Positions 5,852 through 61,395 of a stretch of DNA of 64,000 bases are shown piece by piece. The first letter of the stretch is position 1. Each line of letters begins with the position of its first letter. The position numbers and the translations under genes were made by a program. Origin of the DNA: Lacticaseibacillus absianus (GTDB lineage: Bacteria; Bacillota; Bacilli; Lactobacillales; Lactobacillaceae); assembly GCF_013407595.1 (NCBI RefSeq), contig NZ_JABEKX010000001.1, positions 266,522-330,521 on the forward strand, written 5' to 3'. The notes beneath the pieces were generated by a model. The model saw nothing but the letters and a program-made list of their open reading frames with translations, did no database searches and was not told where the DNA came from.

Positions 5852-6014
5852 GGGGCTGTGCCATAACGCGGTTTTAGCCCAGAGTATAAGAGAGACCCCC
5901 TGCAAAACCCGAACTTAGGTTTTGCAGGGGGTCTCTCTTATACGGCTAGGGCGTTGTGTTATGGCACGTAACGTTCTGGAATAGTCGTGCCACCAGGGGT
6001 TATGTCACAATCCC
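5852..6014 (+). repeat. Modular hairpin repeat, copy A
   Basis: A left module beginning GGGGCTGTGCCATAACGCGG is followed by a perfect 26-bp hairpin (5884-5909 with 5918-5943, 8-nt loop). A right module then holds GTTCTGGAATAGTCGTGCCA and ends GTCACAATCCC. The two ends form an imperfect inverted repeat. The copy lies between convergent genes. It is the cleanest copy of the family also seen at 6476, 10842, 14119, 18236, 58914, 59866 and 61346. Confidence 0.85.
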
Positions 6015-6030
6015 GTTCGTGTGCGATGCG

Positions 6031-6438
6031 CTAGAAGGTCAGCGTGTCATCGCCGACCTGGGCTTCATCGAAGGTCGCCGCAAAGACAGCCATGTTCTCG
6101 CGGTATTCCGGCGAGAAGCGGGCGAAGCTCGGGTACTTCGCGTCCATCGCCGCGAAAAAGGCGCTGCGGTCGGCCGCCGCTTCGCAGTGCGCGCCGGTGA
6201 CGCGGATGGTCTGGAAGTTGACCGGGACGGTCTCGAAGGAGACCGTCGGGTTGGCCTTCAACTCGGCGACCTTGGCGGCGGTGCCCGCGGTGCCGAAGTA
6301 GATCGTGTTGGCCTGATCCGGGAAGTGCATGAAGAAGACGAAGCGAACGCTTGGCGTGTGGCCGGCGGTCGTCTCAGTCGCCAAGGCGATCATTTCAGCG
6401 TTGGCGAGCAGGTCGTGGTACGTTTCTTGAGTGGACAT
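6031..6438 (-). CDS. Pyridoxamine 5'-phosphate oxidase-like flavin-binding protein
   Basis: A 135-residue single-domain protein with the split-barrel fold pattern of PNPOx-like proteins: AEMIALATETTAGHTPSVRF, FMHFPDQANTIYFGTAGTAA and the C-terminal segment. It is too short for PdxH. These proteins bind FMN, F420 or haem and reduce small molecules; the substrate here is unknown. The ATG at 6438 follows AGGAGGCTTATCG. The longer open frame upstream runs into repeat copy B and is not coding. It probably stands alone. Confidence 0.7.
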   Translation of the reverse strand: MSTQETYHDLLANAEMIALATETTAGHTPSVRFVFFMHFPDQANTIYFGTAGTAAKVAELKANPTVSFETVPVNFQTIRVTGAHCEAAADRSAFFAAMDAKYPSFARFSPEYRENMAVFAATFDEAQVGDDTLTF

Positions 6439-6475
6439 CGATAAGCCTCCTGTGGTTAGATTCAGGCTCAGTATA

Positions 6476-6573
6476 GCACACCGGTAAGCGCAGCCCTCAG
6501 CCAAACCTGAGTGCGGGTCTTACTGAGGGCTGCGCTGACACTGTAGGCTAAAACCGCGCTATGGCACAGTCCC
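6476..6573 (-). repeat. Modular hairpin repeat, copy B (degenerate)
   Basis: On the minus strand it begins GGGACTGTGCCATAGCGCGG and continues into a hairpin with arms 6487-6500 and 6523-6536 (core AGCGCAGCCCTCA). The apical part of the stem has decayed compared with copy A. It lies between the alcohol dehydrogenase stop and the start of the PNPOx-like gene. Confidence 0.75.
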
Positions 6574-6590
6574 TCGAGCCCGTGCCGCGC

Positions 6591-7712
6591 TTATTCGCCG
6601 GGCACGTAGGTCTCGTCGATCACCAGCACGGGCTTGATCGTCTTGCCCGAGCGGGAGTCAGCGTTGGCCTCGTTGATCTGGTCGAAGGAATAGAACTTCT
6701 CGGTCTTGTCGAAGTCGAACAGGCCCATTTTGTAGAAGTCGATCAGACGCGGGATGTCGATCTGCGGGATGGAATCGCCCATGTTGACGCCGACGATCTT
6801 CTTGTCGTCGACGCACAGGTCGTTCCAGGTGTCCACGTCGATGTGATGCGGGGTGACGGCGATGGTCGCCGTCGTGCCGCCTTGCGCGAGGACTTTGATC
6901 GAGCTCTCCATTACCGCGGTGACGCCGGTGGTGTCGACTGCCCAGTCGACGCCGCGGCCACCGGTCAGGTCCTTCACGGCCTGAACGACGTCGATGCCCT
7001 TGGAGTTGATCGTGTCCGTCGCGCCGAGTTCCTTGGCCAGCTCGAGGCGGGAATCCACGATATCGATGCCGATGACCTTGACGCAGCCGGAGATCCGGCC
7101 AGCCATCATGGCCGCCAGACCGACCGCACCGGTCCCGAACACGGCGATGGTGTCGCCGGGCCGCGGCTTCAGGGTGTTCAAGACGGTGCCGGAGCCGGTC
7201 ACGTAGCCGCAACCCAGCGGACCGAGCTTGCGCAGATCCAGGGCCTTATCGACTTTGACCGCGTTGCGCTCGCGAACGACGGTCGTGGTGGTGAAGGAGC
7301 TCTGGTCGAACATGTCGGCGATGTGCTGGCCGTTTTCGGTAAAGTGGCTGGTGCCATCTGGTCGGATCCCGGATAGGTTGTTGTGCGCGTAGTTCTCGCA
7401 CTGCGTCGGGATACCCTTCAGGCAGGACTTACAGTTCCCGCAGGCGTAGAAGGACAGGACCACGTGGTCACCGGGCTGGAACTGGGTGACTTCCGGCCCG
7501 ACCTTCTCCACGATCCCCGAGCCTTCGTGCCCGAGCACGATCGGGTAGTCGATGATGGCGTCGCCGATGCGCAGGGCTTCGTCGGAGTGGCAGATCCCAC
7601 TGGCGACCATGTGCACCTGGATATCGTCTGGGCCCATCTCGGCCAACTCGATATCGTCTTTGATCTCGAAGTCGGCGTTTTGCTGCTGAACAACTGCTGC
7701 TTTGATCTTCAT
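6591..7712 (-). CDS. Zinc-dependent alcohol dehydrogenase (MDR family)
   Basis: A 373-residue medium-chain dehydrogenase. Catalytic zinc ligands are Cys in ASGICHSDE, GHEGSG and a later Cys in GPLGCGY. Structural zinc cysteines are in YACGNCKSCLKGIPTQC. The Rossmann motif is VFGTGAVGLAAM, followed by IGIDIVDSR with Asp favouring NAD. The domain layout matches class III/aryl-alcohol dehydrogenases that interconvert alcohols and aldehydes. The start is ATG at 7712 (MKIKAAVV), 8 nt after AAAGGAG; a second ATG at 7715 is possible. A cre-like site lies upstream, so carbon catabolite control is likely. Confidence 0.9.
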   Translation of the reverse strand: MKIKAAVVQQQNADFEIKDDIELAEMGPDDIQVHMVASGICHSDEALRIGDAIIDYPIVLGHEGSGIVEKVGPEVTQFQPGDHVVLSFYACGNCKSCLKGIPTQCENYAHNNLSGIRPDGTSHFTENGQHIADMFDQSSFTTTTVVRERNAVKVDKALDLRKLGPLGCGYVTGSGTVLNTLKPRPGDTIAVFGTGAVGLAAMMAGRISGCVKVIGIDIVDSRLELAKELGATDTINSKGIDVVQAVKDLTGGRGVDWAVDTTGVTAVMESSIKVLAQGGTTATIAVTPHHIDVDTWNDLCVDDKKIVGVNMGDSIPQIDIPRLIDFYKMGLFDFDKTEKFYSFDQINEANADSRSGKTIKPVLVIDETYVPGE

Positions 7713-7768
7713 CATGAACACTCCTTTGTGAGGGTTTTACGTGTTCATTATTTCACTTATTCGAAAAA

Positions 7769-7783
7769 TTGCAAGCGTTTCCA
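7769..7783. promoter_or_regulatory. cre-like site upstream of the alcohol dehydrogenase
   Basis: TTGCAAGCGTTTCCA fits the CcpA operator pattern WTGNAANCGNWNNCW at every position. It lies about 55 bases upstream of the dehydrogenase start, where CcpA binding would affect the promoter. Confidence 0.65.
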
Positions 7784-7879
7784 CTCATGCCTGTCGATCT
7801 GCCCTGAGTCATATCCTTTGTTCACCCGACCGATGCCGCACCAGCTCAGGCTTTGCGGCCGATCTATAGTGGAACAAAT

Positions 7880-8869
7880 TTACAGGTCGGGGATGCCGGC
7901 TTCACGGTCGGCGGCGGGGGTGCAGCCGAAGCAGGCGGTGTACTTCGAATAAAAAAAGCTGGTGTTCGTCAACCCGACCGCGGCGATGACGTGGCGGATC
8001 GGCTGGCGGGTCGTCTGGATCAGCTCGCGGGCGCGCAGTAAGCGCTCCTCCGTCAGGGCCTGGCTGAACGGCTGCCCGACTTCGCGGCGAAACAGGTTGC
8101 TGAGGTAGTTGCGGTTGTACGCGAGCTGGTCGGCGAGCTGCGCGAGGGTCACCTGGGCGTAGTCCGTCTGGATCGCGGTCAGCATAGTCATCGCAATGGT
8201 CTGCGCCGGGGTCAGCGCCGGCTGCGGTAAGTCGGCCAACCCACGGGCGAGCTGGGCGACCAAGACTGTGGTCTCGGCGGCCATGATCGTCTCCCCCAGC
8301 GGGCGGGGCTGCAGGTATTCTTCGATCAGGCGTTGCAGGGTGGCCTGTAGCTCGCCGGTGCGTGCGGCCGGGTAGAGGACGTAGCCCGCAGGCGGGGCGT
8401 CGGTGCGCTGGGCACGCTCAAAGGCGGCGCGCACGTTGCGCTGACGCAGCAGGGCGTCGAAGTGGGCGATGGAGAGTTGAGGGTCGTGGAGCAGCACGTT
8501 GATCAGCAGGTCGCCTTCACCCAACGCGTCGATCGCGTGCCGGCTGCCGCGGTCGATCAGGAGCAGGTCGCCGGGGCCTAGCGACACGGGGGCCCCGTTG
8601 ACCTGCTCCTGGGCGTGGCCGGCGAGCATGTAGTTGAGCTCAAGGAAGTCGTGGGCGTGCAGTGGGTACGGCGCGAAGCGGTTGTGCTTGCTGATGACCA
8701 GATCGCGGTGGCGAAAAAAGGTCTCGTTGAGGATCGGGATGCGGGCCCGTTCGCTCGATGCGATGTTCAAAACGGTCGGGGGCAAGTCGTCGGCGACCTG
8801 CGCGTCGCGACGTTGCGCGATCTCGACCGGGGTCAAGGCGCGTAGGGTCTGCCAAATGATCGGTGCCAT
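7880..8869 (-). CDS. AraC-family regulator with N-terminal cupin
   Basis: A 329-residue regulator. The N-terminal half holds a cupin-like sensor (FAPYPLHAHDFLELNYMLAG, GPGDLLLIDRGSRHAI). The C-terminal part, from about residue 225, holds two helix-turn-helices (VTLAQLADQLAYNRNYLSNL, then PIRHVIAAVGLTNTSFFYSK). The ATG at 8869 follows GAAGGAGGTGCGCT. It lies upstream of, and in the same direction as, the alcohol dehydrogenase, but that gene has its own promoter region. A metabolite ligand and control of the neighbour are inferences. Confidence 0.85.
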   Translation of the reverse strand: MAPIIWQTLRALTPVEIAQRRDAQVADDLPPTVLNIASSERARIPILNETFFRHRDLVISKHNRFAPYPLHAHDFLELNYMLAGHAQEQVNGAPVSLGPGDLLLIDRGSRHAIDALGEGDLLINVLLHDPQLSIAHFDALLRQRNVRAAFERAQRTDAPPAGYVLYPAARTGELQATLQRLIEEYLQPRPLGETIMAAETTVLVAQLARGLADLPQPALTPAQTIAMTMLTAIQTDYAQVTLAQLADQLAYNRNYLSNLFRREVGQPFSQALTEERLLRARELIQTTRQPIRHVIAAVGLTNTSFFYSKYTACFGCTPAADREAGIPDL

Positions 8870-8993
8870 AGCGCACCTCCTTCATAATGCCTTCACCGTA
8901 GCGCCGCGACCTTGGTGTGTCAACGTTTCGCGCCGATCGCCGGGTTAAATAACAAACTTTTTAATCATAAATTTCTACATATTCGCATTAAAG

Positions 8994-9023
8994 TTGACGA
9001 AAAATAACGTGAGCGATTACACT
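8994..9023 (+). promoter_or_regulatory. Promoter of the WxL protein gene
   Basis: TTGACG (8994-8999) and TACACT (9018-9023) are separated by 18 bp in an AT-rich island. The predicted transcript start falls just before the leader hairpin at 9032. Confidence 0.5.
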
Positions 9024-9031
9024 GGTCCCAA

Positions 9032-9055
9032 CGCCGAGAAAACGGTTTCTCGGCG
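9032..9055 (+). other. Leader hairpin before the WxL gene
   Basis: CGCCGAGAAA (9032-9041) and TTTCTCGGCG (9046-9055) form a perfect 10-bp stem with a 4-nt loop. There is no U-run after it. It would sit at the extreme 5' end of the mRNA, upstream of AAAGGAGG, a position that could protect the message from 5' decay. Confidence 0.55.
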
Positions 9056-9083
9056 CAGCAATCAGCCAAAGGAGGCAAGTCAG

Positions 9084-9761
9084 ATGAGGAGAAGCAGTTG
9101 GCTCGGCCTGATCGGCGGGGTGCTGATCGGCGTGGCCGGCGGTGTGCCGGTGGTCGCGGCGACCGGCCCGGGTAATGCCGGCGAGAACATCGCGGCGGCG
9201 GTGGTCGGGGCCGGGTTCACCGTCAGTGAGGCCGGTGACGCCGACGCGGCCAGCGACGCCACGGTGGAGCTGAGCGCCGGGGCGCTGACGTTGGACGCGG
9301 TCCCGAATTTCCACTTTGCGACGAAGCCGGTCGCTGACATTATCACCGGTCGCGCGCTCACCCTCGCGCTGGGGGACGGACCGCGGACCGCGGCTAATTA
9401 TGACGGCAACGACGACGGCGTGGCGGTCGTCACCGATTACCGCGGCACGAACGGGGGCTGGACCCTGTCGGCGGAGGCTGCGGCGTTCGAACGGGTGGGC
9501 GGTGACGTCAGCGATACGCTGTACTTCAGTGCCTTTCCGATCACCGGGAAGGCGACTGGTGACAATATCGGGGCGCTGACCAGTGGGGCTGAGTTGCTCG
9601 ACGGCGGCCCGGTCATGGCGGCGGCCCCAGGCTTCGGGACGGGGACGACGACGTGGCGGCTCGACTCAGCGACCGTTGAGTTGCTCCAGAGCGTCGCGGC
9701 TAAGGCTGGGCAGTACCGCTCGACCATCCAGTGGCGCTTATCGACCACCCCGCAGCCGTGA
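9084..9761 (+). CDS. WxL-domain cell-surface protein
   Basis: A 225-residue secreted protein with a signal peptide (MRRSSWLGLIGGVLIGVAGG, cut near VVAATG). The mature part is a WxL domain: the WTL of NGGWTLSAEAAAF and the closing QYRSTIQWRLST, matching the usual YxATLxWxL end. WxL domains bind peptidoglycan non-covalently and often act with DUF916 partners. The ATG at 9084 follows AAAGGAGGCAAGTCAG; the frame is open further up but lacks a ribosome site. It is co-directional with the DUF916 gene 69 bases on. Confidence 0.8.
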   Translation: MRRSSWLGLIGGVLIGVAGGVPVVAATGPGNAGENIAAAVVGAGFTVSEAGDADAASDATVELSAGALTLDAVPNFHFATKPVADIITGRALTLALGDGPRTAANYDGNDDGVAVVTDYRGTNGGWTLSAEAAAFERVGGDVSDTLYFSAFPITGKATGDNIGALTSGAELLDGGPVMAAAPGFGTGTTTWRLDSATVELLQSVAAKAGQYRSTIQWRLSTTPQP

Positions 9762-9766
9762 CCGCC

Positions 9767-9787
9767 AGGTGCCGCGATGCGGCACCT
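9767..9787 (+). other. Short intercistronic hairpin
   Basis: AGGTGCCGC (9767-9775) and GCGGCACCT (9779-9787) form a 9-bp stem with a 3-nt loop, a few bases after the WxL stop. There is no U-run. It probably tunes expression between the two cotranscribed genes, not full termination. Confidence 0.5.
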
Positions 9788-9830
9788 ACATAGACTGAGA
9801 TGCTGCGTTGGAAGCGAAAAGGGGCGACCG

Positions 9831-10823
9831 ATGATGCGACGCTGGTGGTGGATGATCGGATGGTTGTGGTGGTTGGTGTGTGCCGCGCCGGGGCATCCGG
9901 TGCAGGCGGTCGGCGCGGGGTTCACGGTGACACCGCAGTTGCCGGCGAATCAGTTGGATCGTGCGGCGGGCTTCTTTGACCTGCGGGTGACGCCCGGCGT
10001 TGCCCAGCCGCTGACTGTGGTGGTCGCTAACCGCACGGCGACCGCCAAGCGGTTGCAGGCCCAAGTCGTGACGGCCTACACGCAGGTCAACGGCGTGGTC
10101 AGTTACGCCCCGGGTGCGCCACGGGATGACAGTGCCCAGGTGCGGTTGAGCGAGATCGCTTCTAAGCCGGTCACCTTCACCCTGGCGGCGCACCAGGCGC
10201 GCCCGGTGACCATGACCGTGGTCCCACCGGCGAGTGGGTTCACCGGCCAGGTGCTTGGGGCGCTGATCGTTCAGGATCGCTCGACATACGCGGCAGGCGG
10301 CAGTGCAGCCGGGTTCGGCGTGCGTAACCAGTTCACCTTGGCTGTGGCGGTGCAGTTGCAGGTGAGTCTGACGAAGGTCGCCCCCCACCTCCGGCTGGGC
10401 CCGGTGCGCCTGGGGACGCAGGCGACGCGGCCGGCGGTGCTCGCACAGGTTCAAAACGATCGGCCGCGCCTCTTCGGTCAACTGGCGCTGACGGCGACGA
10501 TCACGCCGACCAGCGGGGGCCCGGCCGTCGCTCGGCGACAGGTGCACGACTACGCAATGGCGCCGAACTCCCACTTCGACTTCGCCGTCTGGCCAGCGCA
10601 AGACCTCGCGCCGGGGCGCTACTGGTTCACCCTGACGGCCACTGCCGGTCAGGCCACCTGGCGCTTCCGGCGCGCCTTCACCGTGGGCCAGACGCTCAGC
10701 AGCCAGGCCCAGGCGGCGGGGCGGCAACGCCTGTGGGCCGCGGGGTGGCTCGCGGTGCTTACCTTGGCGCTGGTGCTCTGGCTGGGGTGGCGGCGCCGCA
10801 AGCGCCGGGGCCTCGGTGCGTGA
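9831..10823 (+). CDS. DUF916/DUF3324 WxL-partner membrane protein
   Basis: A 330-residue protein with an N-terminal signal sequence rich in Trp (RRWWWMIGWLWWLVCAAPG). It has a DUF916 domain (about 30-150, FFDLRVTPGVAQPLTVVVAN), a DUF3324 domain (about 160-280, FTGQVLGALIVQD) and a C-terminal membrane helix followed by a basic tail (LWLGWRRRKRRG). Members anchor WxL proteins and bind peptidoglycan. The start at 9831 follows AAGGGGCG. Together with the preceding WxL gene it makes an unusually small WxL locus; larger loci usually carry several WxL genes. Confidence 0.8.
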   Translation: MMRRWWWMIGWLWWLVCAAPGHPVQAVGAGFTVTPQLPANQLDRAAGFFDLRVTPGVAQPLTVVVANRTATAKRLQAQVVTAYTQVNGVVSYAPGAPRDDSAQVRLSEIASKPVTFTLAAHQARPVTMTVVPPASGFTGQVLGALIVQDRSTYAAGGSAAGFGVRNQFTLAVAVQLQVSLTKVAPHLRLGPVRLGTQATRPAVLAQVQNDRPRLFGQLALTATITPTSGGPAVARRQVHDYAMAPNSHFDFAVWPAQDLAPGRYWFTLTATAGQATWRFRRAFTVGQTLSSQAQAAGRQRLWAAGWLAVLTLALVLWLGWRRRKRRGLGA

Positions 10824-10841
10824 GTGCGGCAAGGCAAAAAA

Positions 10842-11167
10842 GGGCCGTGCCATCACGCGGGTTTAGCCTAGAATATAAGAGCGGTTCCCTGACCCGAATT
10901 TAGGGTTGCAGGGAACCGCTCTTAATAAGGCTTGCGCTGCCCGGTCGAACGCAGTGCGTGACCGGCAGACAAGCGTTAGAATGCCGAACTGCGGCCTCCG
11001 GCATCGCCGGACGGAAGCATGGGTACTTACTGCGGAGTCCGGCAACGCCGGACGGAAGCACGAGCACTTACTGCGGAGTCTGGCATCGCCGGACGGAAGC
11101 ACCGGCGTTGCCGCCATGGCACGTCATGGTCTGGAACAGCCGTGCCACAAGATGGGTGTCACAGCCC
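10842..11167 (+). repeat. Modular hairpin repeat, copy C (long form)
   Basis: The left module GGGCCGTGCCATCACGCGGG is followed by a 16-bp hairpin (10876-10891 with 10909-10924). A second module holds CTGCCCGGTCGAACGCAGTG, itself able to fold with GTGCGTGACCGGCAG. Three 41-bp tandem units and the right module, ending GTCACAGCCC, complete the copy. Runs of A before it and T after it extend the terminal inverted repeat and would let it terminate both convergent neighbours. Confidence 0.85.
10989..11111 (+). repeat. Three 41-bp tandem units inside copy C
   Basis: Units start at 10989, 11030 and 11071, each beginning CTGCGG. Each carries a small hairpin (TCCGGC with GCCGGA, loop 3 nt) and the string GCCGGACGGAAGCA. 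Unit borders are exact at 41 bp. Copy D has two units of the same kind. Confidence 0.85.
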
Positions 11168-11179
11168 TTTTTTTGGCAG

Positions 11180-12742
11180 TCATGCGTCTGGCTGGTACCA
11201 CGCCCACACGGCGGCGATGGTCGGCTGCGCGAGGTACTTCACGTCGAGCGACGCCAGCCCATTGCCCTTGCGCAGGTTGATCGTCAAGTGTCCGAGCCCA
11301 GTGCGGGCGAGCCACACCGGCTGTTTGCGTTCCAGTGACTGGATGTTGGCGCGGCGCAGGAAGAGGGTCTCACGTGACCACACGTGGCCGATCTGACACA
11401 CGAGTCGGTCGCCGTCGAGCTGGACCACTCCGGTGTGCCGCCCGGCGAGCCAGCCGAGCGGCCCGGCGAGCAGTGTCAACGCCGCGGCCCCGCCGGCCAC
11501 CCAAGGCGTCCAGGCGCGCCACCACCACCAGCTGGCGGCGATCGCGAGCAGGCCGATGGTCGCCCAGGTCAGCGCCGCGTTGCGGGCGTAGCGCCACGGG
11601 GTGCGCGGGCGGGCCAGCGTTGGCAGGTCAGTCGGCAGCCAGGGAATGAAGGGGCGCATCGTCGGCAACAGCGCGGCGTCGGCGACGACCGGCAGGAGCA
11701 CTAGGTCATCGTCGCTTTCGTCCGCCGCGGCGCTGGAGGCGGTCAATCCCTGCACCGTGCTTAGGTGGAAACACTGGCGCAGGATGCTGGCCTTGGCCCG
11801 CACGGCTTGGATGCGCGGGCGCTGAACGCTGACCGCGTCGCGCTTGAGCAGCCCACGCTCTGCGGTCAGCAGGTCACCGCGCCGCGTCAGGGTGAAGCGG
11901 TAGTATTTTTGGATCAGGTTAAAATACGACAGGGCAAAACCGATCAGCAGGACCAGGATCACCAGCCCGACCAACAGGGTGACGGCCAGATGGCTCAGCG
12001 TGGTGCCCAGTGCGTCGACCCACGCCTTAGGAGCGAGGTCCTCCAGCTTGTTGACCACCCACAGCAGCCCGGAGATGATCGGGATCACCCCGAGGCTGGT
12101 CAGCGCGTAGAGGTTGAGCGCGTGGGCGTCAGCGGTGTAGCTGTCGTCTGGAGCGCCGGTCAGCAGCGGGGCTGGGTCAGGAGTCGTCGGCATCGGCTCG
12201 CTGATCGGCGCTTCGGGCGCTGCTGGTTCAGCGGGCCCTGCTGCGGTCACGTCGGGCGAACCGCCGGTGGCGACATCAGTGGCCCCGGCGACTGCGACAC
12301 GCATGCGCCGGGCCTCGATCTGCGCGGCGACTTGGACCGGCACGGCGTCGAGCACCGCCTCAGCCTTGTCGCTGTCTTGACCCGAGGTCTCGATGCTCAG
12401 CCGCTCCAGGCCGAACGGGGTGAGGAAGAACCACTGCTGGCGCTGCAGTGTCTGGATCTTGGTGTAGGGGATGTGGCTGGTGCGACGCTTGAACAGGCCG
12501 CTGCTGACGGTCAAGGCGTCCGGCCCCAGCGTGTAGGTGAAGCGCCAGTAACGCACGCCGGCGGACAGGGCGGCGATGGCGACCAGGATCCCGAGGAGGC
12601 CGAGGTCAGTCAGCCCCTCCATGCGGGTGAAGCCACCTTTGAAGTCGCGCAAAAAAGCGAGCAGGGCTAGCGGGGTCCAGGTGAGGAGCCGGCCGCCGAT
12701 CAGCATCACCAGCGCGAGCGGGTGCAGTCGCTTAGGCGTCAT
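11180..12742 (-). CDS. PH-domain membrane protein, YdbT type
   Basis: A 520-residue membrane protein with three bacterial PH (bPH2, formerly DUF304) segments. One follows the first helix pair (TYTLGPDALTVSSGLFKRRT), another is near residue 280 (YRFTLTRRGDLLTAERGLLK) and the last is at the C-terminus (LDGDRLVCQIGHVWSRETLF). Hydrophobic helix pairs separate them. A Pro/Ala/Thr-rich linker of roughly 50 residues (near 150-200) is inserted. The gene overlaps its upstream partner by 11 bases, as in ydbS-ydbT pairs. Function is unknown; the pair is sometimes linked to envelope or bacteriocin resistance. Confidence 0.8.
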   Translation of the reverse strand: MTPKRLHPLALVMLIGGRLLTWTPLALLAFLRDFKGGFTRMEGLTDLGLLGILVAIAALSAGVRYWRFTYTLGPDALTVSSGLFKRRTSHIPYTKIQTLQRQQWFFLTPFGLERLSIETSGQDSDKAEAVLDAVPVQVAAQIEARRMRVAVAGATDVATGGSPDVTAAGPAEPAAPEAPISEPMPTTPDPAPLLTGAPDDSYTADAHALNLYALTSLGVIPIISGLLWVVNKLEDLAPKAWVDALGTTLSHLAVTLLVGLVILVLLIGFALSYFNLIQKYYRFTLTRRGDLLTAERGLLKRDAVSVQRPRIQAVRAKASILRQCFHLSTVQGLTASSAAADESDDDLVLLPVVADAALLPTMRPFIPWLPTDLPTLARPRTPWRYARNAALTWATIGLLAIAASWWWWRAWTPWVAGGAAALTLLAGPLGWLAGRHTGVVQLDGDRLVCQIGHVWSRETLFLRRANIQSLERKQPVWLARTGLGHLTINLRKGNGLASLDVKYLAQPTIAAVWAWYQPDA

Positions 12743-13196
12743 CGCGCGCCTCCTGTGCCAGCCGGAGGATCAAGTCGCGCAAGGTGGCGGCCGTCGCCGT
12801 GGTCACCCCGGCGATCGCGTCCGTCGTCGCCGCTGTCTGGATCTGCACTTCCTGCAGCCCGTTGGCGCGCAGGATCGGGCCGGCCTCTAGCGTGACGTTT
12901 TGGATCCGACTGATCGGGATCGCCGTCTCCTTGCGCACGAGTGCCCCTTCACGCAGGTACACGGCGGTGTCGGTGATCCGGTAACGCCAGTACGCGTAGC
13001 GGTAAGGGATCAGCAGCGCCTTGCTCCCGGCGTGCAGAACGAGGACCGCGGCCCCGATCAGCACCACCCACAACGGCCAGTGCCATAGCGTATGCCCCAG
13101 CCAGGCCACCGCGGTGACAGCGCCCCACCACCCCGCGGTCAACAGCGTCCCGATCCACCAGACCCGGCGGATCGCCGCCGGTAGTCGTTCTTCCAT
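12732..13196 (-). CDS. PH-domain membrane protein, YdbS type
   Basis: A 154-residue protein with two N-terminal membrane helices (VWWIGTLLTAGWWGAVTAV, then LWVVLIGAAVLVL) and one bPH2 domain (YWRYRITDTAVYLREGALVR). It is the small partner of the following three-PH gene and its TAA lies inside that gene. The ATG at 13196 follows AGGAGGAGATAACG. It is divergent from the DUF2975 gene across the twin palindromes at 13287-13323. Confidence 0.8.
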   Translation of the reverse strand: MEERLPAAIRRVWWIGTLLTAGWWGAVTAVAWLGHTLWHWPLWVVLIGAAVLVLHAGSKALLIPYRYAYWRYRITDTAVYLREGALVRKETAIPISRIQNVTLEAGPILRANGLQEVQIQTAATTDAIAGVTTATAATLRDLILRLAQEARDDA

Positions 13197-13286
13197 CGTT
13201 ATCTCCTCCTGTCTCGGTCGGTGACCAAGTTACTGCGATAATAGCAGAAAGTCGATGGTCGTTCAAATTTTCACATTGGTCGTGCA

Positions 13287-13323
13287 TATCGTCTGACGAT
13301 ATGATATTATCGTTTTGCGATAA
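13287..13323. promoter_or_regulatory. Twin operator: two TATCG-N5-CGATA palindromes
   Basis: TATCGTCTGACGATA (13287-13301) and TTATCGTTTTGCGATAA (13307-13323) share the half-site TATCG with the same 5-nt gap. Their centres are 21 bp apart, two helical turns. They lie between the divergent YdbS-type and DUF2975 genes, about 20-55 bases before the latter. The XRE protein encoded at 13895 is the natural candidate to bind them. Confidence 0.65.
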
Positions 13324-13341
13324 CAAACAGGGGGTGGCGAC

Positions 13342-13884
13342 ATGAATGGGGCAGACTTAGTTCAAGGGCGCACGCGTACCGCCGTGCGCGTGCTGAAGTG
13401 GGCGTTCGGCCTGATCCAGTGGGGCAACGTGGGCATGGCGATCGGATGGCCGACATGGCTGATCCTGCAGGCACGCCAGGCCAAGATCGGGCCGTGGCTC
13501 CCGGCCAACCACTGGCTGCCGATGGAGACGACCACGATCACGATCACCTATCCGGATCGACCGAAGTGCGTGCACACGTACGTGGGGATGGGATTCTTCG
13601 TGTGCTGGCTGATCGGGATCGTGCTGGGTTGTGTGGCGGGGTTCTTGATGTTTCGGGCGTTGCGGCGGCTGTGCCAGGCGATCGAGGCCGGCGTCTTCTT
13701 CACTGCAGGCAACTTGGCGCTGTGGCGAACGGTGGTGCGCATGGCCCTGGCGCAGTGGGGGCTGGCCGCGCTGGGTGGGCACCTCGATGCGACCGGTCTG
13801 TTGTTGGTGGTCAGCGGCTACGTCTTGGCGGTCTTGTTCCGGTATGGTCTGGCGCTTCAAGACGACGCTGACCAGATGATATAA
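13342..13884 (+). CDS. DUF2975 membrane protein
   Basis: A 180-residue protein with about four membrane helices and the layout of DUF2975 proteins: an N-terminal helix, an extracellular segment (about 50-80), the helix pair FFVCWLIGIVLGCVAGFLMF and a cytosolic loop (RALRRLCQAIEAGVFFTAGN). DUF2975 genes typically precede a small XRE regulator, as here with a 10-base gap. Function is unknown. The ATG follows CAGGGGGTGGCGAC. Confidence 0.75.
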   Translation: MNGADLVQGRTRTAVRVLKWAFGLIQWGNVGMAIGWPTWLILQARQAKIGPWLPANHWLPMETTTITITYPDRPKCVHTYVGMGFFVCWLIGIVLGCVAGFLMFRALRRLCQAIEAGVFFTAGNLALWRTVVRMALAQWGLAALGGHLDATGLLLVVSGYVLAVLFRYGLALQDDADQMI

Positions 13885-13894
13885 GGATATCAAG

Positions 13895-14113
13895 ATGATC
13901 AAAGTTACCTTAGACCAGGTCATGCGCGCACGCGGCATCAGTAGCGTCGAGCTGGCCCAAGCGATCGGCATCACGCCGGCGAACCTCTCCATCCTCAAGA
14001 CCGGTAAGGCCAAGGGGATCCGGTTCAGCACGTTGGCCAAGCTCTGCCAGGTGCTGGACTGCCAGCCCGGCGAGCTGCTGGCGGCAGAAGACACGCCGGC
14101 AGACGCCAAATAG
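13895..14113 (+). CDS. Small XRE-family regulator (YozG type)
   Basis: A 72-residue protein that is almost entirely one Cro/CI helix-turn-helix: MIKVTLDQVMRARGISSVEL, then AIGITPANLSILKTGKAKGI and LCQVLDCQPGELL. This is the usual partner of DUF2975 proteins. It probably autoregulates through the twin palindromes upstream of the DUF2975 gene. Repeat copy D starts 5 bases after the stop. Confidence 0.85.
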   Translation: MIKVTLDQVMRARGISSVELAQAIGITPANLSILKTGKAKGIRFSTLAKLCQVLDCQPGELLAAEDTPADAK

Positions 14114-14118
14114 GCCGA

Positions 14119-14413
14119 GCGGCTGAGACATAAAAGCGTTTTGGCCCAGAATATAAGCGTGTCCTCCGGCAAACCCCTAGGTTTTGCTGGAGGACACGCT
14201 TACTCGGCTTGCGCTGCCCGCTCGAACGCAGTGAGTTACGGGCAGACATGCGTTAGAACGCCGTGCTGCGGCCTGCGGCTATGCCGGACGGAAGCACTGG
14301 TACTCACTGCGGTCTTCGGTATAGCCGGACGGAAGCACGGACGGCGCTTTGTGACTCGTCTTGTTTTGGAATCGTCTTGCCGCTATCGTGAGCCGCTGAT
14401 GATGGCTCAGCCC
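14119..14413 (+). repeat. Modular hairpin repeat, copy D (long form)
   Basis: It begins GCGGCTGAGACATAAAAGCG, has a hairpin at 14154-14202, the second module with CTGCCCG/CGGGCAG arms and two 41-bp units. It ends in GATGATGGCTCAGCCC, an imperfect inverted repeat of the start. TAGGCCGA before it and TTGGCCGA after it agree at 7 of 8 bases and may be a decayed target duplication. It lies between convergent genes. Confidence 0.85.
14266..14347 (+). repeat. Two 41-bp tandem units inside copy D
   Basis: Units begin CTGCGG at 14266 and 14307. Each carries a small hairpin arm next to GCCGGACGGAAGCA, in the same register as the three units of copy C. The two units differ from each other mainly in the hairpin arms. 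Confidence 0.8.
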
Positions 14414-14444
14414 TTGGCCGATCGGGCGTCGAATCAGAGGCCGC

Positions 14445-14768
14445 TCAGACCAGCGGCCGCGCGACGAGCTCGATCAAGCCCTTGTGCAAGGCGACGTTGA
14501 TGCGGTCGATCGGCTGCTCGAGGATCTTCTGGTATTCCTCCAAAACGTCATACGGCAGGGGTGTCATGGCGTGGAGGTCGTCGATCACGTCGGCTACACG
14601 GTCGGCCTTGGTCAGGTCGCCGAAGATGTCGATCTTGCTCAGGCAGTCTGTCAGCAGTGCAGACAGCTGCGCATCTGGTTTACCGCTCAGGTCGGTGATG
14701 ACCACTTGCTGGTGGTTCAACGGCTGGTGCTCGAACTGGATCACTTTTAACGCGCGAAACACATTCAT
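14445..14768 (-). CDS. Unrecognised 107-residue protein
   Basis: A soluble, mixed alpha/beta-looking protein beginning MNVFRALKVIQFEHQPLNHQ. A helical middle contains LSALLTDCLSKIDIF and the end reads IELVARPLV. There is no signal peptide or membrane segment and I recognise no domain. The ATG at 14768 follows GAGGTG by 6 nt. It is divergent from the HesB-like gene, sharing a short promoter region, and convergent with the XRE gene across repeat D. Confidence 0.6.
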   Translation of the reverse strand: MNVFRALKVIQFEHQPLNHQQVVITDLSGKPDAQLSALLTDCLSKIDIFGDLTKADRVADVIDDLHAMTPLPYDVLEEYQKILEQPIDRINVALHKGLIELVARPLV

Positions 14769-14866
14769 AGCGCTCACCTCTTGTTTTATTCGATTGTATG
14801 CCTAAGTGCTGCCCAAAGACAATGATTTGTGCATCATGCTACGATGGAAGGGAAGGAGGCGATGCA

Positions 14867-15211
14867 ATGCATGAATTGACGATGACCCCAGAAGCTCAGG
14901 AGAAGATCAGCGATTGGCTCCCTGCAGATCGCGCCCTGGTGCTCGACCTCGATGACGGGGTCGGCCCGTTCTCCAAAGCGGGTGTCTGCAGCCTGGACGT
15001 GTCGTTCCGGCTGTTGGCGGTGCCACGAGACGACTTGGCGGCGCCGTACACCGAGACGGTGAGCTCCCCTGTCGGCCCGGTCCACATCAAGGACTACACG
15101 GCCAACTACTTCACTGAGGCCCCCCGCCTGGCGCTGCAAGGCAGCCGGCTGGCCCTGAGCAACAACACTGGACTGGTCGACTCTAACGTCGAGCGCGTGT
15201 TGGTGGATTGA
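14867..15211 (+). CDS. HesB/IscA-like (Fe-S biosynthesis family) protein
   Basis: A 114-residue protein with the fold pattern of HesB-like proteins: MTPEAQEKISDW, LVLDLDDGVGPFSKAGVCS and the C-terminal ALSNNTGLVDSNVERVL. The conserved CxC pair of true A-type Fe-S carriers is absent. It is therefore closer to the YneR-type branch found in lactobacilli, and cluster delivery cannot be assumed. The ATG at 14867 follows AAGGAGGCGATGCA. A hairpin with seven T's follows the stop. Confidence 0.7.
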   Translation: MHELTMTPEAQEKISDWLPADRALVLDLDDGVGPFSKAGVCSLDVSFRLLAVPRDDLAAPYTETVSSPVGPVHIKDYTANYFTEAPRLALQGSRLALSNNTGLVDSNVERVLVD

Positions 15212-15226
15212 CGCCCCACGAAGATC

Positions 15227-15257
15227 GGTGCCCTGGACCCCCGGGGTGCCTTTTTTT
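15227..15257 (+). terminator. Intrinsic terminator after the HesB-like gene
   Basis: GGTGCCC pairs with GGGTGCC allowing two G-U pairs, followed by TTTTTTT. A 19-base direct repeat (at about 15263 and 15308, core AGAGCGGCGGACTCGCG) lies in the following spacer, before the helicase gene. Confidence 0.6.
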
Positions 15258-15403
15258 GTCCCCAGAGCGGCGGACTCGCGGGCTTAGCGGGAACCGCAGC
15301 TCGACGAGCCAGAGCGGCGGACTCGCGCCGGCTAGACCCGCGTGTACAGATAGTGTAAAGTGGCCTCAACGGCGGCCTGACCACAGGCGCCAAGGAGGTT
15401 GGA

Positions 15404-17623
15404 ATGACGATCGAACGACCGGATCGCGCCGCACTGGCAACGGCGATCCGCACAGCCCAGCAGACGCAAGTGGCGCTGGAGGCGTGGCAGGCCAAGTTGA
15501 CCACCGCCATGGCCGCCCCGTTTGACCAAGCGCGGCAGTTACACGACGCTGCGGTGCAGGCGGCGGTGGCCGCAACGGTGCTGCCACCGATCATCGCGGC
15601 AGATTCCAAGCCGGTCACCCCGGCGCTGGCGGCTGCTGGCATCACGACGCTCGGCGAGTTGCAGGCGGTGATCTACACCGAGGCGAACGTGGCGGGATTG
15701 AGTGCAGCGACGTGCAAAAAACTGCGGCAGTTCTGCTCGGACCAGGTGACCGCAGTCGCCGAGTCGACGCCGCTGCGCCTCGACTTTGACCGCGACCCGC
15801 AGCATAGCGCCGATCTGTGCCGCAGCGCGCTGGCGTGGCCAGTGTTGCAAGTGGCGCAACAAGCGCTCGCGCCGGTGGCGGACACTGTCGCTGCGCTCGG
15901 CCTGACCGTGGCGACGTTGCCACTGAACCGGCTGACACCGCTGGGGTGGTGGCTGACCGGTGCGACCCGCAAGGCGCAGCTGGCGACAGCGGCGACACAG
16001 GTGATCGCTGCCGCCCCGGCCACCGCCCAAGCGCTGGCGGATGCCGTGGCCCCGCTGGTGGCGGCGCAACCGCTGGCGCTCGACGCGGTGCGTGCACGGT
16101 TCGAAGCGGATGCCGCGAGTTTTTATGCCTTATTCGAGCAGCTGGAACTCGCTGGGACGGCCCCGACGGCGGTGGCGCTGGATCCGTTCGCCGACTTGAT
16201 TCAAGCGGCGCCGACCGCCGCAGACCCGACGCAAGCGGCACTGCAGACCCTGGTGCGCCGGGTAGGGGCGATCGACTACACCAACCCTTACCTGACGGCC
16301 ACGCTGCGTGGCTGGCAGGCGTTCGGCACCCGCTACGCGCTGGCGCAGCGCAAGGTCTTGCTCGGCGACGAGATGGGCCTGGGCAAAACGCTGGAGGCGC
16401 TGGGCGTGATCACCAGTCGCCTGGCAGCCGGCGACACGCACGCGCTGGTGGTCGCGCCGGTCAGCTTGCTGACGAACTGGCGCCGCGAGGTCCGCAAGCA
16501 CACGACGCTGGTGCCCCGCATCCTGCACGGGGACGACCGCGCCGCGCAGCTAGCCGCTTGGCAGGCGCAAGGCGGGGTGGCGGTGATCAACTACGATCAG
16601 CTGTGGCGGCTGCCGGCTTCGGCGCTCACCGCGGTGGACGTGCTGGTGGCCGATGAGGCGCAAGCGCTTCTGAACCCGCAGGCCAAGCGGACGCAGGCGG
16701 TCACGCGCTTGGCCCGGCAGGCTGACACGGTGATGTACATGACCGGCACGCCGATCCAGAACCGGCTGGAAGACATGCTCAACCTGATCGCGCCGCTACA
16801 GCCCGCGATCTGCGCGCAGCTGGCGGCCGGGCCGCAGCTCTACGCCGAAGACGCCTTCAAGCGCGTGGTCGCCCCGGTCTACCTCCGCCGCAACCGGGCG
16901 GATGTGCTCAAGGAGCTGCCGCCGCTGGAACGCCAAGACGTCTGGGTCGATTTTTCCCCAGCAGAGCGTGCCCAGTATCAGGTGGCGGTGCACGACGGGA
17001 ACTTCATGGCGATGCGCCAGGCCGCCTGGCTGCCCACCGAACCGGCGGCGCAGGCCCCTAAGCGTGCGTGGCTGGTCAACTTGGCGCAAGAGGCGGTCGC
17101 CAACGGCCACAAGGTGCTGGTGTTCTCCTACTTTCGGCGCGTCCTGGACCTGGTCGAGCAGGACCTCGGGGCGTTGTGCTTGCCGCCCATCACGGGCAGC
17201 TTGAGCCTTGGTGAGCGTCAGGCCCTGCTCGATGAATTCGTGGCCCGCCGCAGTGGGGCGGTGCTGTGCGCACAGATCCAGACGCTGGGCCAAGGCGTGA
17301 ATTTGCAGGCCGCCGACACCGTGGTGTTCGCCGAGCCGCAGCTCACCCCGGCGACCGAGGCGCAGGCGTTGTCGCGCGTCTACCGCATGGGTCAGACACG
17401 TTCGGTGACCGTCTACCGCCTACTGACCGAGCACGCGATCGACCAGCTGATCCGTGCGCGCGCCGCTCACAAGCAAGCGGTCTTCGATCAGTTCGCCAAG
17501 GACTCTTCGGTGGCGGCAGCGACCGAAGACGCGACGGCCCAGGCCAGCTCCGCGTTGCTCAGCCAGCTGGTCGCGCAGGCTGCGGCCCAGGCGCGCCCAG
17601 ATGCGGACTGGGACCAGTACTGA
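15404..17623 (+). CDS. SNF2-family DNA-dependent ATPase
   Basis: A 739-residue protein. Residues 1-290 are Ala-rich and include a helix-hairpin-helix-like stretch (AGITTLGELQAVIYTEANVA, GLSAATCKKLRQF). The SNF2 motor follows: LGDEMGLGKTLEA (Walker A, near 321), VVAPVSLLTNWRRE, VADEAQALLNP (DEAQ box, near 416) and MTGTPIQNRLEDML. The helicase C half includes VLVFSYFRRVLDLV and ALSRVYRMGQTRSVTVYRL. Such ATPases remodel protein-DNA complexes. No methylase or nuclease gene is adjacent, so a defence role is unsupported. The ATG follows AAGGAGGTTGGA. Confidence 0.85.
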   Translation: MTIERPDRAALATAIRTAQQTQVALEAWQAKLTTAMAAPFDQARQLHDAAVQAAVAATVLPPIIAADSKPVTPALAAAGITTLGELQAVIYTEANVAGLSAATCKKLRQFCSDQVTAVAESTPLRLDFDRDPQHSADLCRSALAWPVLQVAQQALAPVADTVAALGLTVATLPLNRLTPLGWWLTGATRKAQLATAATQVIAAAPATAQALADAVAPLVAAQPLALDAVRARFEADAASFYALFEQLELAGTAPTAVALDPFADLIQAAPTAADPTQAALQTLVRRVGAIDYTNPYLTATLRGWQAFGTRYALAQRKVLLGDEMGLGKTLEALGVITSRLAAGDTHALVVAPVSLLTNWRREVRKHTTLVPRILHGDDRAAQLAAWQAQGGVAVINYDQLWRLPASALTAVDVLVADEAQALLNPQAKRTQAVTRLARQADTVMYMTGTPIQNRLEDMLNLIAPLQPAICAQLAAGPQLYAEDAFKRVVAPVYLRRNRADVLKELPPLERQDVWVDFSPAERAQYQVAVHDGNFMAMRQAAWLPTEPAAQAPKRAWLVNLAQEAVANGHKVLVFSYFRRVLDLVEQDLGALCLPPITGSLSLGERQALLDEFVARRSGAVLCAQIQTLGQGVNLQAADTVVFAEPQLTPATEAQALSRVYRMGQTRSVTVYRLLTEHAIDQLIRARAAHKQAVFDQFAKDSSVAAATEDATAQASSALLSQLVAQAAAQARPDADWDQY

Positions 17624-17703
17624 CGAACTGGGCTTAAGACGGATGCCGGTAAAAGCGGTTCCATGCTATAATTGTCCCAGCATGATCTGGAGGGGGTGGC
17701 GTG

Positions 17704-18147: not shown

Positions 18148-18235
18148 TCGGGGCGCTGAGCAGTGGGTTCGGCGGGCTGGCCCTGCCGTAGTGGGGTAGC
18201 GGTCGGACCACGCGAGAAACAAGACGAGATAAACG

Positions 18236-18409: not shown

Positions 18410-18426
18410 TTTGTCATCCCGTCGCG

Positions 18427-58867: not shown

Positions 58868-59060
58868 GAGGCTGAGCCAAAACGCGGGGTGAGCCCAGAA
58901 TATAAGCGCCAATGGGGCTGTGCCATGACGCGGTTTTAGCCCAGAGTATAAGAACGGCCCTCCGCAAAACCCGAACTTAGGTTTTGCGGAGGGTCGTTCT
59001 TGTACGTTTTGCTCTGCCCGTTCGCACGCAGTGCGTGACAGGCAGACAGCCGTCCCGCTG
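58868..59060 (+). repeat. Modular hairpin repeat, copy F, preceded by a truncated copy
   Basis: A left-end fragment (58868-58910, GGCTGAGCCAAAACGCGGGG) stops at the loop side and a full copy starts at 58914. Its hairpin arms 58946-58971 and 58980-59005 match at 24 of 26 positions plus two G-U pairs. The second module with CTGCCCGTTCGCACGCAGTG follows, but no 41-bp units and no right end are seen. It lies after the metallophosphoesterase gene. Confidence 0.8.
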
Positions 59061-59149
59061 CGCCTAATTGCGGAGGCCACCCTCCGCCTCGAGGCCGAAG
59101 TCTGACCCCCGACAGGATGCGATAATGGAAGCATCTTGGAGGGATGACG

Positions 59150-59865: not shown

Positions 59866-59960
59866 GGGGCTGGGCCATAACGCGGTTTTAGCCCAGTGTA
59901 CAAGCGCGGCCCTCAGTAAAACCCGAAACTTGGGTTTTGCTGAGGGCCGTTTTTGTACGA
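59866..59960 (+). repeat. Modular hairpin repeat, copy G
   Basis: The left module GGGGCTGGGCCATAACGCGG is followed by a 27-bp hairpin (59898-59924 with 59932-59958) containing three G-U pairs and one mismatch. The right module is degraded. It follows the lipoprotein gene. The rest of the 59768-60100 gap shows no gene. Confidence 0.8.
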
Positions 59961-60100
59961 CGAACCCCTAACGGCCTCGTTCTGTTATTAATTCGCATTC
60001 TATAAACCGAATTTCTGCGATATAGAGTGATCCGCTTCACTTTTGATGTGTTATTATAATTACGTAGTTGAACTGTTAGTTACGCATCATCAGGAGGAGC

Positions 60101-60716
60101 ATTAAGAAAAAGTATTCGTTTCTACAGCGTTCAGTTGTCCTAGCTGTAAGCACCCTTGCTTTGCTTTTACTCGCCACTCCCCATACTACTCAAGCAGCAA
60201 CCTCAGAGTCTCCATCTTCAGAACAAACAGTTTTGACTGAGCGCGCTAGCCAAGATTTTGAAACTGCATCTCAATTACCAGTAGAATCATTCCAGAACGA
60301 TTTCATTCCAGGCCCCGCAGCTTATATGCAGACAGTCCTTGCTCGCTCCGGATCGCTCCCTTCAAGCATCGCTGACTACAAGAAACTTGGTTACAAAAAT
60401 ATTGTTTACAGCAAGTGGACAGGCCTATAAAAATGTCATGAGCACTAAGTCAAAACGGATTGCGACTTTTATGGCCGAACAGCTAGCCGGCGTGATTCCT
60501 GCCGCCAGAATTCCCTTAGCCCTCTATGATCTTAGTCAGGTTGTTAAAACACAACACCCCGATATTTGGCCTACCGTTAATGCCAGAATGATTTCCGCAA
60601 CATCTCCACGCGGTATTCAAGTTCTAATTGGAGAAGAATCGTATACCAGATACTACACAAACAGCGCCCGCACAAAGCTCTTAAAGACTGTCCATCACAC
60701 CACTTTTGTTGGGTAG
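60101..60716 (+). pseudogene. Frameshifted gene for a secreted protein
   Basis: A strong AGGAGGAGC ribosome site is followed directly by ATT AAG AAA AAG, an ATT in place of the start codon. It encodes a good signal peptide (KKKYSFLQRSVVLAVSTLAL, ending TTQAA). The frame stops at 60430 (YKNIVYSKWTGL). The next frame continues without a break from near 60400 to 60716 (ASGQAYKNVMSTKSKRIATF ... VHHTTFVG), so one base was lost or gained near 60405. The intact protein would be about 204 residues. AT-rich, probably acquired. Function unknown; a bacteriocin-like or toxin role is possible but unsupported. Confidence 0.6.
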
Positions 60717-60730
60717 AAAGGCTGTCACGT

Positions 60731-60883
60731 ATGACTAAATACTCCATTTTTTTCATATCATTCTGCATCATAATGATTATTATTTATGCCACTGATGCAG
60801 GCCCCTGGTTCGGCGTCCCCGTTGGAATTATAGGGATCGTAGGCACTATCTATTTCGAGTTTGTCGAAAAAAAAAGGCGCTGA
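60731..60883 (+). CDS. Small membrane protein
   Basis: A 50-residue protein with two hydrophobic segments (YSIFFISFCIIMIIIYATDA and WFGVPVGIIGIVGTIYFEF) and a basic end EKKRR. The ATG at 60731 follows GAAAGG. It lies 14 bases after the frameshifted secreted-protein gene, as immunity or partner proteins often do, but that role is inference. Confidence 0.6.
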   Translation: MTKYSIFFISFCIIMIIIYATDAGPWFGVPVGIIGIVGTIYFEFVEKKRR

Positions 60884-60923
60884 TGCGGCTCAAACACTGA
60901 GCTAAAAGTCGAGCCATTTTAGC

Positions 60924-60956
60924 AATACCCCCGCCTAAAGATGGCAGGGGTATTTT
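60924..60956 (+). terminator. Intrinsic terminator after the small membrane protein
   Basis: AATACCCC.GCC pairs with GGC.GGGGTATT around a 6-nt loop, followed by TTTTG. Confidence 0.75.
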
Positions 60957-61145
60957 GTTGCCATTCGCGAGCGAGTGACCGTGACGACCCCAACAGCTTG
61001 CCACCCGCCGCGACCATCGAAGGCAACCTAGAGGGCGGGACAACTCAAGTATCCTTCCGCAAAATTGAAGAGGATGACTAATATAGCGTGCATTCGTGAG
61101 TCGAAACGAGATTATCGCTCACTCATCTAGACTCGCAATGTAAAA
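60957..61145. other. Gap, possible gene remnant
   Basis: No start with a ribosome site. A plus-strand frame ending near 61080 reads TIEGNLEGGTTQVSFRKIEE before its stop, which looks like the tail of a coding sequence without its beginning. It cannot be named. Confidence 0.3.
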
Positions 61146-61175
61146 CAAAAAAGGCCAAAAATGGCCTCTTTTTTC
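61146..61175. terminator. Bidirectional terminator
   Basis: AAAAGGCC and GGCCTCTTTT pair around AAAAAT, with A-run before and TTTTTT after, so it can act on both strands. It lies just past the stop of the minus-strand ORF at 61196. Confidence 0.75.
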
Positions 61176-61195
61176 CTGGTTTTATGCAAAAGTGA

Positions 61196-61333
61196 TCACA
61201 CTTCTAAGTCGAGTGTATCTAGCATCTGTCGCAGATTCAGCAGCTCATCTTTCGCAGCGGAATTGATAGCCTGGCCTTCGGTGCTGTAATCTTTATCAGT
61301 GCTTCGCATTGCATCAGCAAGCACATCTGCCAT
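61196..61333 (-). CDS. Short hypothetical ORF, possibly a truncated gene
   Basis: A 45-residue frame beginning MADVLADAMRSTDKDYSTEG and ending LNLRQMLDTLDLEV. No ribosome site precedes the ATG at 61333. The frame stays open upstream through repeat fragment H, so this may be the tail of a gene cut by that repeat. It has no recognised domain. Confidence 0.35.
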   Translation of the reverse strand: MADVLADAMRSTDKDYSTEGQAINSAAKDELLNLRQMLDTLDLEV

Positions 61334-61345
61334 TTCGGACGACGG

Positions 61346-61395
61346 GGGCGTTGCGTTATGGTACGTCACGTTCTGGAATAGTCGTGCCACCAGAG
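61346..61395 (+). repeat. Modular hairpin repeat, right-end fragment H
   Basis: GGCGTTGCGTTATGGTACGT followed by GTTCTGGAATAGTCGTGCCA matches the right module of copy A almost base for base. The hairpin and left module are missing. It lies just past the stop of the response-regulator gene. Confidence 0.75.

Follow-up and report, generated by a model that had tools for sequence, protein, structure and literature searches.

A probable MITE family with IS1182-type ends that takes the place of stem-loops at gene ends in Lacticaseibacillus and carries a hairpin with compensated arms

Hairpins with arms that differ between copies, each arm still pairing with its own partner, lie at the 3' ends of genes in the window, the 64,000-nucleotide stretch of Lacticaseibacillus absianus contig NZ_JABEKX010000001.1 analyzed here, and the question is what these hairpins are and how their arms remain paired. 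The four middle-arm sequences quoted in the initial annotation, AGAGACCCCC, TCAGGCTCCC, AACGGCCCTC and CGTGTCCTCC, are present as stated, and in each case the partner arm of the same copy is complementary to it, apart from a single G.T pair in copy 58914. The repeats are real and belong to a single family, of which 45 copies or pieces were extracted from the window's own genome. The 16-base end pattern, derived from the family itself and searched with at most two mismatches, is found five times in the window, as compared with 0.08 expected. Copy A with its flanks folds with an energy of -108.2 kcal/mol (shuffles: -59.9 ± 4.3 kcal/mol); in this fold, base 5 of the left end is unpaired.

The hairpin is present, but it makes up only part of the element. 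The complete compact copy A (5852-6014, + strand, 163 bp, covariance-model match) has ends of its own, with the left end at 5852-5867, the inner hairpin at 5884-5943 (+ strand, 26 of 26 pairs, loop CGAACTTA) and the right end at 5999-6014. Copy E (18237-18408, - strand, 172 bp, covariance-model match) is a complete compact copy of a second subfamily, with the GCGGCTGAGACA end. Complete copies are bounded by terminal inverted repeats and may contain additional hairpin modules. The long copy at 10841-11167 (+ strand, covariance-model match), which is preceded by an A-run and followed by a T-run, has module M2 (~10929-10979) and three 41-bp M3 units (~10989-11111); its right end was set by reading, the script having placed it wrongly. 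The long copy at 14119-14414 (+ strand, covariance-model match) has M2 and two M3 units. The copy at 6442-6573 (- strand, covariance-model match) is partial, having only the left end and the hairpin, and the copy at 58914-59053 (+ strand, covariance-model match) is truncated within or past M2 and adjoins a 46-bp fragment from the left end of an older copy (58868-58913, + strand), which is kept outside the set of 84 copies used below. The copy begun at 59866 is split into a left half (59866-59962, + strand) and a right half without the terminal repeat (61345-61394, + strand), both being covariance-model matches; by reading, an AT-rich insertion of 1376 bp (59963-61338, no strand assigned) lies inside it, flanked by two ACGACG hexamers (59957-59962 and 61339-61344). 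The copies listed in the initial annotation are present, but its "extra truncated fragment" is, by reading, this right half.

Near-identical 160-bp units occur at unrelated loci. A right end is recognized in 70 of the 84 copies and absent in 14; among the former, the common complete lengths are 163, 212 and 172 to 173 bp, and the flanks differ. The proposed MITE-like (miniature inverted-repeat transposable element), modular layout with terminal inverted repeats and compensated arms is supported. With 160 to 330 bp the element is too small for a transposase gene, and, as in a MITE, many copies of constant length are found in different surroundings.

The covariance-model search that had been proposed as a check matches 24 of 30 genomes of the genus, the own genome counted. 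Among 118 genomes sampled across the order, it matches the own genome and only three others, from two other genera; these three matches are weak and were obtained under stricter filters. Strong matches are confined to a single genus among the genomes searched. A search of the window with Rfam 15 gives no match at the gathering score.

The initial annotation could not place the family, but the element shares its ends with an insertion sequence of the IS1182 family. This is locus L094 of a sister species (genome G014), where an open frame of 584 codons, stop to stop, lies between GGGGTTGTGACATAACTCC and GGGGCTGTGACATAACCCC; the 469 codons scanned match DDE_Tnp_1 and DUF772, with DDE_Tnp_1_6 just below the cut-off, and the whole locus exceeds the DDE_Tnp_1_6 cut-off. 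The likeness concerns the ends only (about 16 to 18 bp shared), the interior not being part of the match. Because the L094 insertion sequence has the same ends, the family is read as a MITE moved by an IS1182-family transposase. The candidate partner sits in G014; in the own genome (G000) neither an autonomous partner nor an intact IS1182 transposase was found, only one sub-threshold piece of DDE_Tnp_1_6 (PF13751) with a GGGGTTGTGCCATAACCCC end beside it. A partner in the same genome is not strictly required, since partners can be lost. Locus L038, the only DUF772 transposase in the own genome, was rejected as partner, since the 3.2 kb examined contain no matching ends.

The location directly 3' of genes is borne out: a long frame ends within 80 bp of the left end in 60 of the 84 copies, of the right end in 44 (this end being placed at a constant offset in copies with no match for it) and of both in 30, and in 10 of the 84 copies no long frame ends close by. 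Outside the element, the left 10 nt are 45% A and the right 10 nt are 46% T. The two flanks of one copy also pair together, with a mean score of 3.79 in an anchored test, as compared with 2.58 ± 0.16 after permutation (0 of 2000 permutations reach it); the 14 copies without a recognized right end are left out here, and the right end of copy 10841 is misplaced. This test supersedes an earlier unanchored score (own mean 5.59, cross mean 4.56). Several copies are without flank pairing, L006, L026, L060 and L068 scoring at most 0.5. A generic terminator scan of 5700-18600, which covers loops of 3 to 8 only and is blind to three-way junctions, finds 8 terminators, as compared with 7.9 ± 3.1 in shuffles.

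Presence and absence of the element at orthologous sites can be compared in four pairs, one of which involves a distant relative. The empty site is a stem-loop each time, three of these being clear terminators, and the element occupies its place. The lysC site is filled in G015 (L132) and empty in G014 (L133), with a 15-bp stem; L085 is filled, and its empty counterpart in G014 (L225) has a 20-bp stem; L074 is filled, and its empty counterpart in G015 (L222) has a weaker stem (z -1.5, 12 of 200 shuffles being equally good); and the site filled by the distant relative in G024 (L135) is empty in G017 (L136). As judged by eye, the stem-loop is deleted without target duplication in all four pairs. 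At a fifth site, tsaD, filled and empty states cannot be aligned between species, and in G001 the stem of the tsaD spacer does not stand out (z -2.0, 10 of 200 shuffles being equally good). An inverted-repeat or terminator target is supported by the flank pairing, the A/T flanks and the empty-site stems, and is not visible at every copy.

We consider it probable, at roughly 0.8, that this is a non-autonomous MITE family, moved in trans by an IS1182-family transposase, which targets stem-loops and replaces terminators. This builds on what is observed directly, namely the unit structure, the shared ends, the gene-end location, the stem-loops of the empty sites, the replacement and the covarying helices. 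The transposase would recognize the shared terminal repeats and mobilize the element in trans, and stem-loops, in practice mostly intrinsic terminators, would serve as targets, which would explain the position 3' of genes. Insertion would replace the target stem-loop, the A and T tracts outside remaining, and the GC-rich terminal repeats would pair beside the retained T tract and probably give the gene back a terminator, so that the insertion is tolerated. It is improbable that the copies are instead a cellular structured-RNA family (a cis-regulator or sRNA) dispersed by duplication and not derived from a transposon: the strong fold and the covariation agree with this, as does the loop motif, which by reading recurs across several species above unrelated stems, but there is no Rfam match, and the IS1182 ends, the precise target replacement and the presence or absence between close species argue against it. 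Independent ordinary terminators, alike through convergence, would also lie at gene ends and have stems followed by T, but this is hardly credible for near-identical 160-bp units at unrelated loci with fixed ends, whose empty sites hold different stem-loops; this reading, set beforehand against the family, is ruled out by the shared left and right modules.

The arms covary. In alignment A1, with 55 of the 84 copies (28 others carry M2/M3, are truncated or went unparsed; L037, which has 10 mismatches, was excluded deliberately, and this favors pairing), 95.5% of the cells are paired, as compared with 83.5% when shuffled, and double-change cells number 277, as compared with 78 when shuffled and at most 64 when slid. 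The covariation reaches a second helix, in which the left end is paired with an internal segment, and the middle pairs of the hairpin are 1.8 to 3.6 times more variable than the rest and still paired. In the proposed mechanism, arm-templated correction (template switching) would be the main source of diversity in the inner hairpin; the alternative is selection at the RNA level. When the palindrome is replicated, a switch of strand or template would copy one arm onto the other, turning a mutation in either arm into a paired change; we give this nearly an even chance. In 29 close copies, picked by name as the main subfamily, diversity per site is 0.094 in the arms versus 0.014 to 0.023 in the left end, helix 1, arm 2 and M2 (right end 0.080, loop 0.068). 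Pairs 7 and 9 show all four combinations with the arms agreeing, L083 and L091, orthologs as judged from their flanks, are distinguished by two paired transversions from C:G to A:T, the insertions GG and GCC of L081 match each other on either side of the loop, and the loop is inverted in L016. However, event numbers are small, variants could spread by exchange between copies, L027 resembles a stepwise T.G intermediate of L011, and the ortholog pair L082/L089 has two uncompensated changes in one arm. PMC8794818 describes this mechanism for RNA hairpins and ascribes perfect stems and their compensating changes to template switching; according to its abstract it deals with reconstructed histories of RNA genes, whereas here each genome holds dozens of copies of one mobile hairpin. 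It is also possible, tentatively, that the transcribed strand must fold, as a selected structured RNA domain at mRNA ends in which second mutations repair single changes. This agrees with the covariation of two helices and with the retention of three consecutive U.G pairs, which would read A.C on the opposite strand, in 49, 54 and 53 of 55 copies. The G.T versus A.C mismatches, counted without the outermost pair and without 7 of the 84 copies having at least five mismatches, are 14 to 3 in G000 alone (distinct events, hand count), but 30 to 18 in all four genomes (p = 0.11) and 3 to 6, the opposite direction, in G014 alone. Moreover, the paired sites of the hairpin change faster than the rest, not slower, and both main subfamilies often show an unpaired A.G at pair 19 (9 copies). 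A further, rather doubtful version is a self-correcting palindrome, one arm of which is rewritten from the other by replication-coupled template switching, so that the arms diversify faster than the remainder of the element and stay paired; a protein or RNA would then read the conserved apical loop GNACTT. If true, mutation alone would yield apparent covariation without RNA selection.

Among known elements, BOX elements are modular, IS1111 is IS110-like, and REP/RAYT elements are GTAG-type palindromes with the RAYT transposase in the genome. As far as the available parts of the sources go, IS1272/TnSha1 (IS1182 family, staphylococci) target an inverted repeat, often a terminator, and remove the stem-loop without making a target duplication (PMC5678879, PMC4923244). 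The Lacticaseibacillus MITE likewise replaces a stem-loop without duplication, but IS1272/TnSha1 carry genes, whereas the MITE, at 160 to 330 bp, occurs in dozens of copies and contains an inner hairpin that covaries. SPRITE, BOX and RUP of Streptococcus pneumoniae are small repeated elements, SPRITE being terminator-like (PMC10969869, as available in part); they have another host, are likened to the MITE by description and not by sequence, and terminator replacement is not mentioned for them in that part. In Coxiella burnetii, according to the same partial source, the MITE QMITE2 is used by IS1111 as a landing site (PMC10969869); here too an insertion sequence uses a MITE in this way, but the IS110-family element lands 5 to 7 nt past the right terminal repeat of the MITE, near or in the T tract. 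An Rfam search of two IS110 loci gives no match. Literature searches for a MITE with terminator stem-loop and transposase in Lactobacillus and for miniature inverted-repeat transposable elements in Lacticaseibacillus found none, and a search for IS1182 miniature inverted repeats found none with lactobacillus in the title. The terminator-replacing MITE is new, as is the IS110-type element homing to its right end.

If a terminator is replaced by the structured ends of the element, it becomes understandable that gene ends tolerate dozens of copies almost without damage; this would also extend the stem-loop-replacing transposition of the IS1272 type to an element without genes in a different genus. 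With dozens of near-identical copies and hypervariable paired arms, the origin of compensating changes becomes testable, and the family is also a warning against taking covariation in a mobile palindrome as sure proof of a functional RNA.

The repeats are a terminator-replacing MITE family, and reading of the sequence and extraction of the copies show them to be present at the positions in the window where the initial annotation had placed them. Comparison of copy A (5852-6014, + strand) with its own 2.84-Mb genome gives 75 BLAST matches, partial and self-complementary ones counted in. From this genome 45 copies or pieces are extracted, 8 of them inside the window, and the covariance model lists additional, weaker matches beyond these; the sister genomes G001, G014 and G015 yield 20, 12 and 8 copies or pieces, respectively. 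A 21-base core pattern matches 24 stretches in the genome_contigs collection (from which the own genome is possibly absent), all of them in the species of the three sisters (probably L. daqingensis 143-4(a), L. suibinensis 247-3 and L. suilingensis ZW152), and the DNA search matches 11 of 41 genomes, every one of the same genus and the own genome counted. The covariance model of 55 compact copies matches 24 of 30 genomes of the genus, the own one among them (the counts per genome include both palindrome strands and perhaps other long hairpins). In the order it matches, with stricter filters, 4 of 118 sampled genomes, these being the own genome and three with weak matches (E 1e-8 to 7e-5) in two other genera.

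Complete copies are commonly 163 bp long, 172-173 bp in a second subfamily with a different end, and 212 bp when module M2 is present, an optional hairpin of about 49 bp that is found in both main subfamilies. The element is built, in this order, from the left end, the P1-left segment, a hairpin of about 26 pairs, P1-right, the short arm 2 and the right end, and the predicted fold of copy A is a three-way junction whose base consists of the two ends and flanking host DNA. Two window copies, at 10841 and 14119, contain M2 and also tandem 41-bp units of the optional module M3 (10989-11111 and 14266-14343, respectively), each unit being a small hairpin with GCCGGACGGAAGCA. Another window copy is interrupted by an AT-rich insertion of 1376 bp (59963-61338), flanked by two ACGACG hexamers, in which a secreted-protein-like frame, apparently interrupted, is seen by eye. 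The window also has a frame of 3178 codons (37389-46925) whose tandem repeats, each about 402-411 bp long, give it an adhesin-like character.

On the opposite strand the right end of the element reads GGGTTGTGACATAACCCC in many copies. The IS1182-family locus L094 of G014 has the ends GGGGTTGTGACATAACTCC and GGGGCTGTGACATAACCCC with a 584-codon frame in between; a scan of 469 of these codons gives matches to DDE_Tnp_1 and DUF772, and the ends of the IS1182-type loci of G013, GTGGCTGAGACATAA, resemble the right end of the second subfamily, GAGGCTGAGACATAA. The sole IS1182-type trace in the own genome is a sub-threshold piece with one IS1182-type end.

Of the 84 copies from the four genomes, 60 have the end of a long frame no more than 80 bp from their left end and 44 have one at their right end; 30 copies have such frames at both ends and 10 at neither. 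The 10 nt outside the left end are rich in A and those outside the right end rich in T, and the two flanks of a copy pair with each other better than permuted flanks do (mean 3.79 versus 2.58 +/- 0.16, 0 of 2000 permutations, 70 of 84 copies), this pairing being absent at some copies. The direct evidence on the target is the comparison of filled and empty sites. At lysC, filled in G015, the same place in G014 is AAAAATCACCCTGAGT CTAAA ACTCAGGGTGATTTT, a stem of 15 pairs (z -7.2). At the L085 site, G015 has the element and G014 a terminator with a 20-bp stem (z -8.8), and the A and T tracts on either side are shared by the two genomes. A group II intron-like piece (L225, around 2040-2948, by eye) adjoins this G014 terminator. 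At L074 the empty site, in G015, is a weaker stem with seven T behind it (z -1.5). At lysC of G024 the site is filled by a distantly related element whose hairpin differs (covariance-model match, E 1e-20), and the place so filled is a terminator in G017 (z -6.2). The tsaD site is filled in the window's genome; in G001 it shows a simple stem resembling a terminator (z -2.0), but the two spacers do not align. Across several species the stems of the model-matched loci are unrelated, yet the apical loop CGAACTTAG, or its GNACTT form, recurs in many of the loci L186-L215 and L229, being absent from some listed loci.

Five full copies (L047-L051) of a 1.7-kb IS110-family element, matching Pfam DEDD_Tnp_IS110 and Transposase_20, are present in the own genome, and all five sit 5-7 nt past a MITE right end. 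A relative in G015 (L229; protein 90% identical) is likewise placed, beside a distant MITE copy. No covariance-model match adjoins the 74% identical relative in G009, and the left end of the G014 relative was looked for and not found. It is possible that the MITE right-end junction is a bridge-RNA target of this element.

Over the 46 pairs of the 55 compact copies, and with kinship among the copies left out of the model, 95.5% of the cells are paired, compared with 83.5% in shuffles. Double changes are found at 23 pairs versus 15.0 in shuffles and in 277 cells versus 78, slid partners giving at most 64. Helix 1 also covaries, with double changes at five pairs. Watson-Crick pairing accounts for 530 of the 568 cells at the polymorphic middle pairs (four genomes together), G.U pairing for 23 and mismatches for 15, and the diversity of the middle pairs exceeds that of the rest 3.6-fold in the own genome and 3.1-, 1.9- and 1.8-fold in G001, G014 and G015. 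In 29 close copies the arms have a diversity of 0.094, the right end one of 0.080 and the loop one of 0.068, and the values for the left end, helix 1, arm 2 and M2 are 0.014-0.023. This arm variation speaks for concerted change or exchange of whole hairpins; simple purifying selection on the pairs should slow the paired sites. A purely templated process of arm change is opposed by the orthologs L082 and L089, which have uncompensated differences, and by L027, a possible stepwise intermediate. Over the four genomes 30 distinct mismatches are G.T and 18 are A.C (p = 0.11), a polarity that clearly favours neither explanation. In copy L016 the hairpin loop is inverted (TAAGTTCG) with the arms intact, and in L081 the stem is extended by matching insertions, GG and GCC, on either side of the loop.

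Published work describes how IS1272 replaces inverted repeats on transposition and how TnSha1 targets terminators (PMC5678879, PMC4923244), and the MITE family shares the insertion mode already known from IS1272. Searches among open-licence PMC papers gave no description of this MITE family; as far as they reach, the host and the form of this terminator-replacing MITE are new. The concerted variation of its hairpin is the most interesting part.
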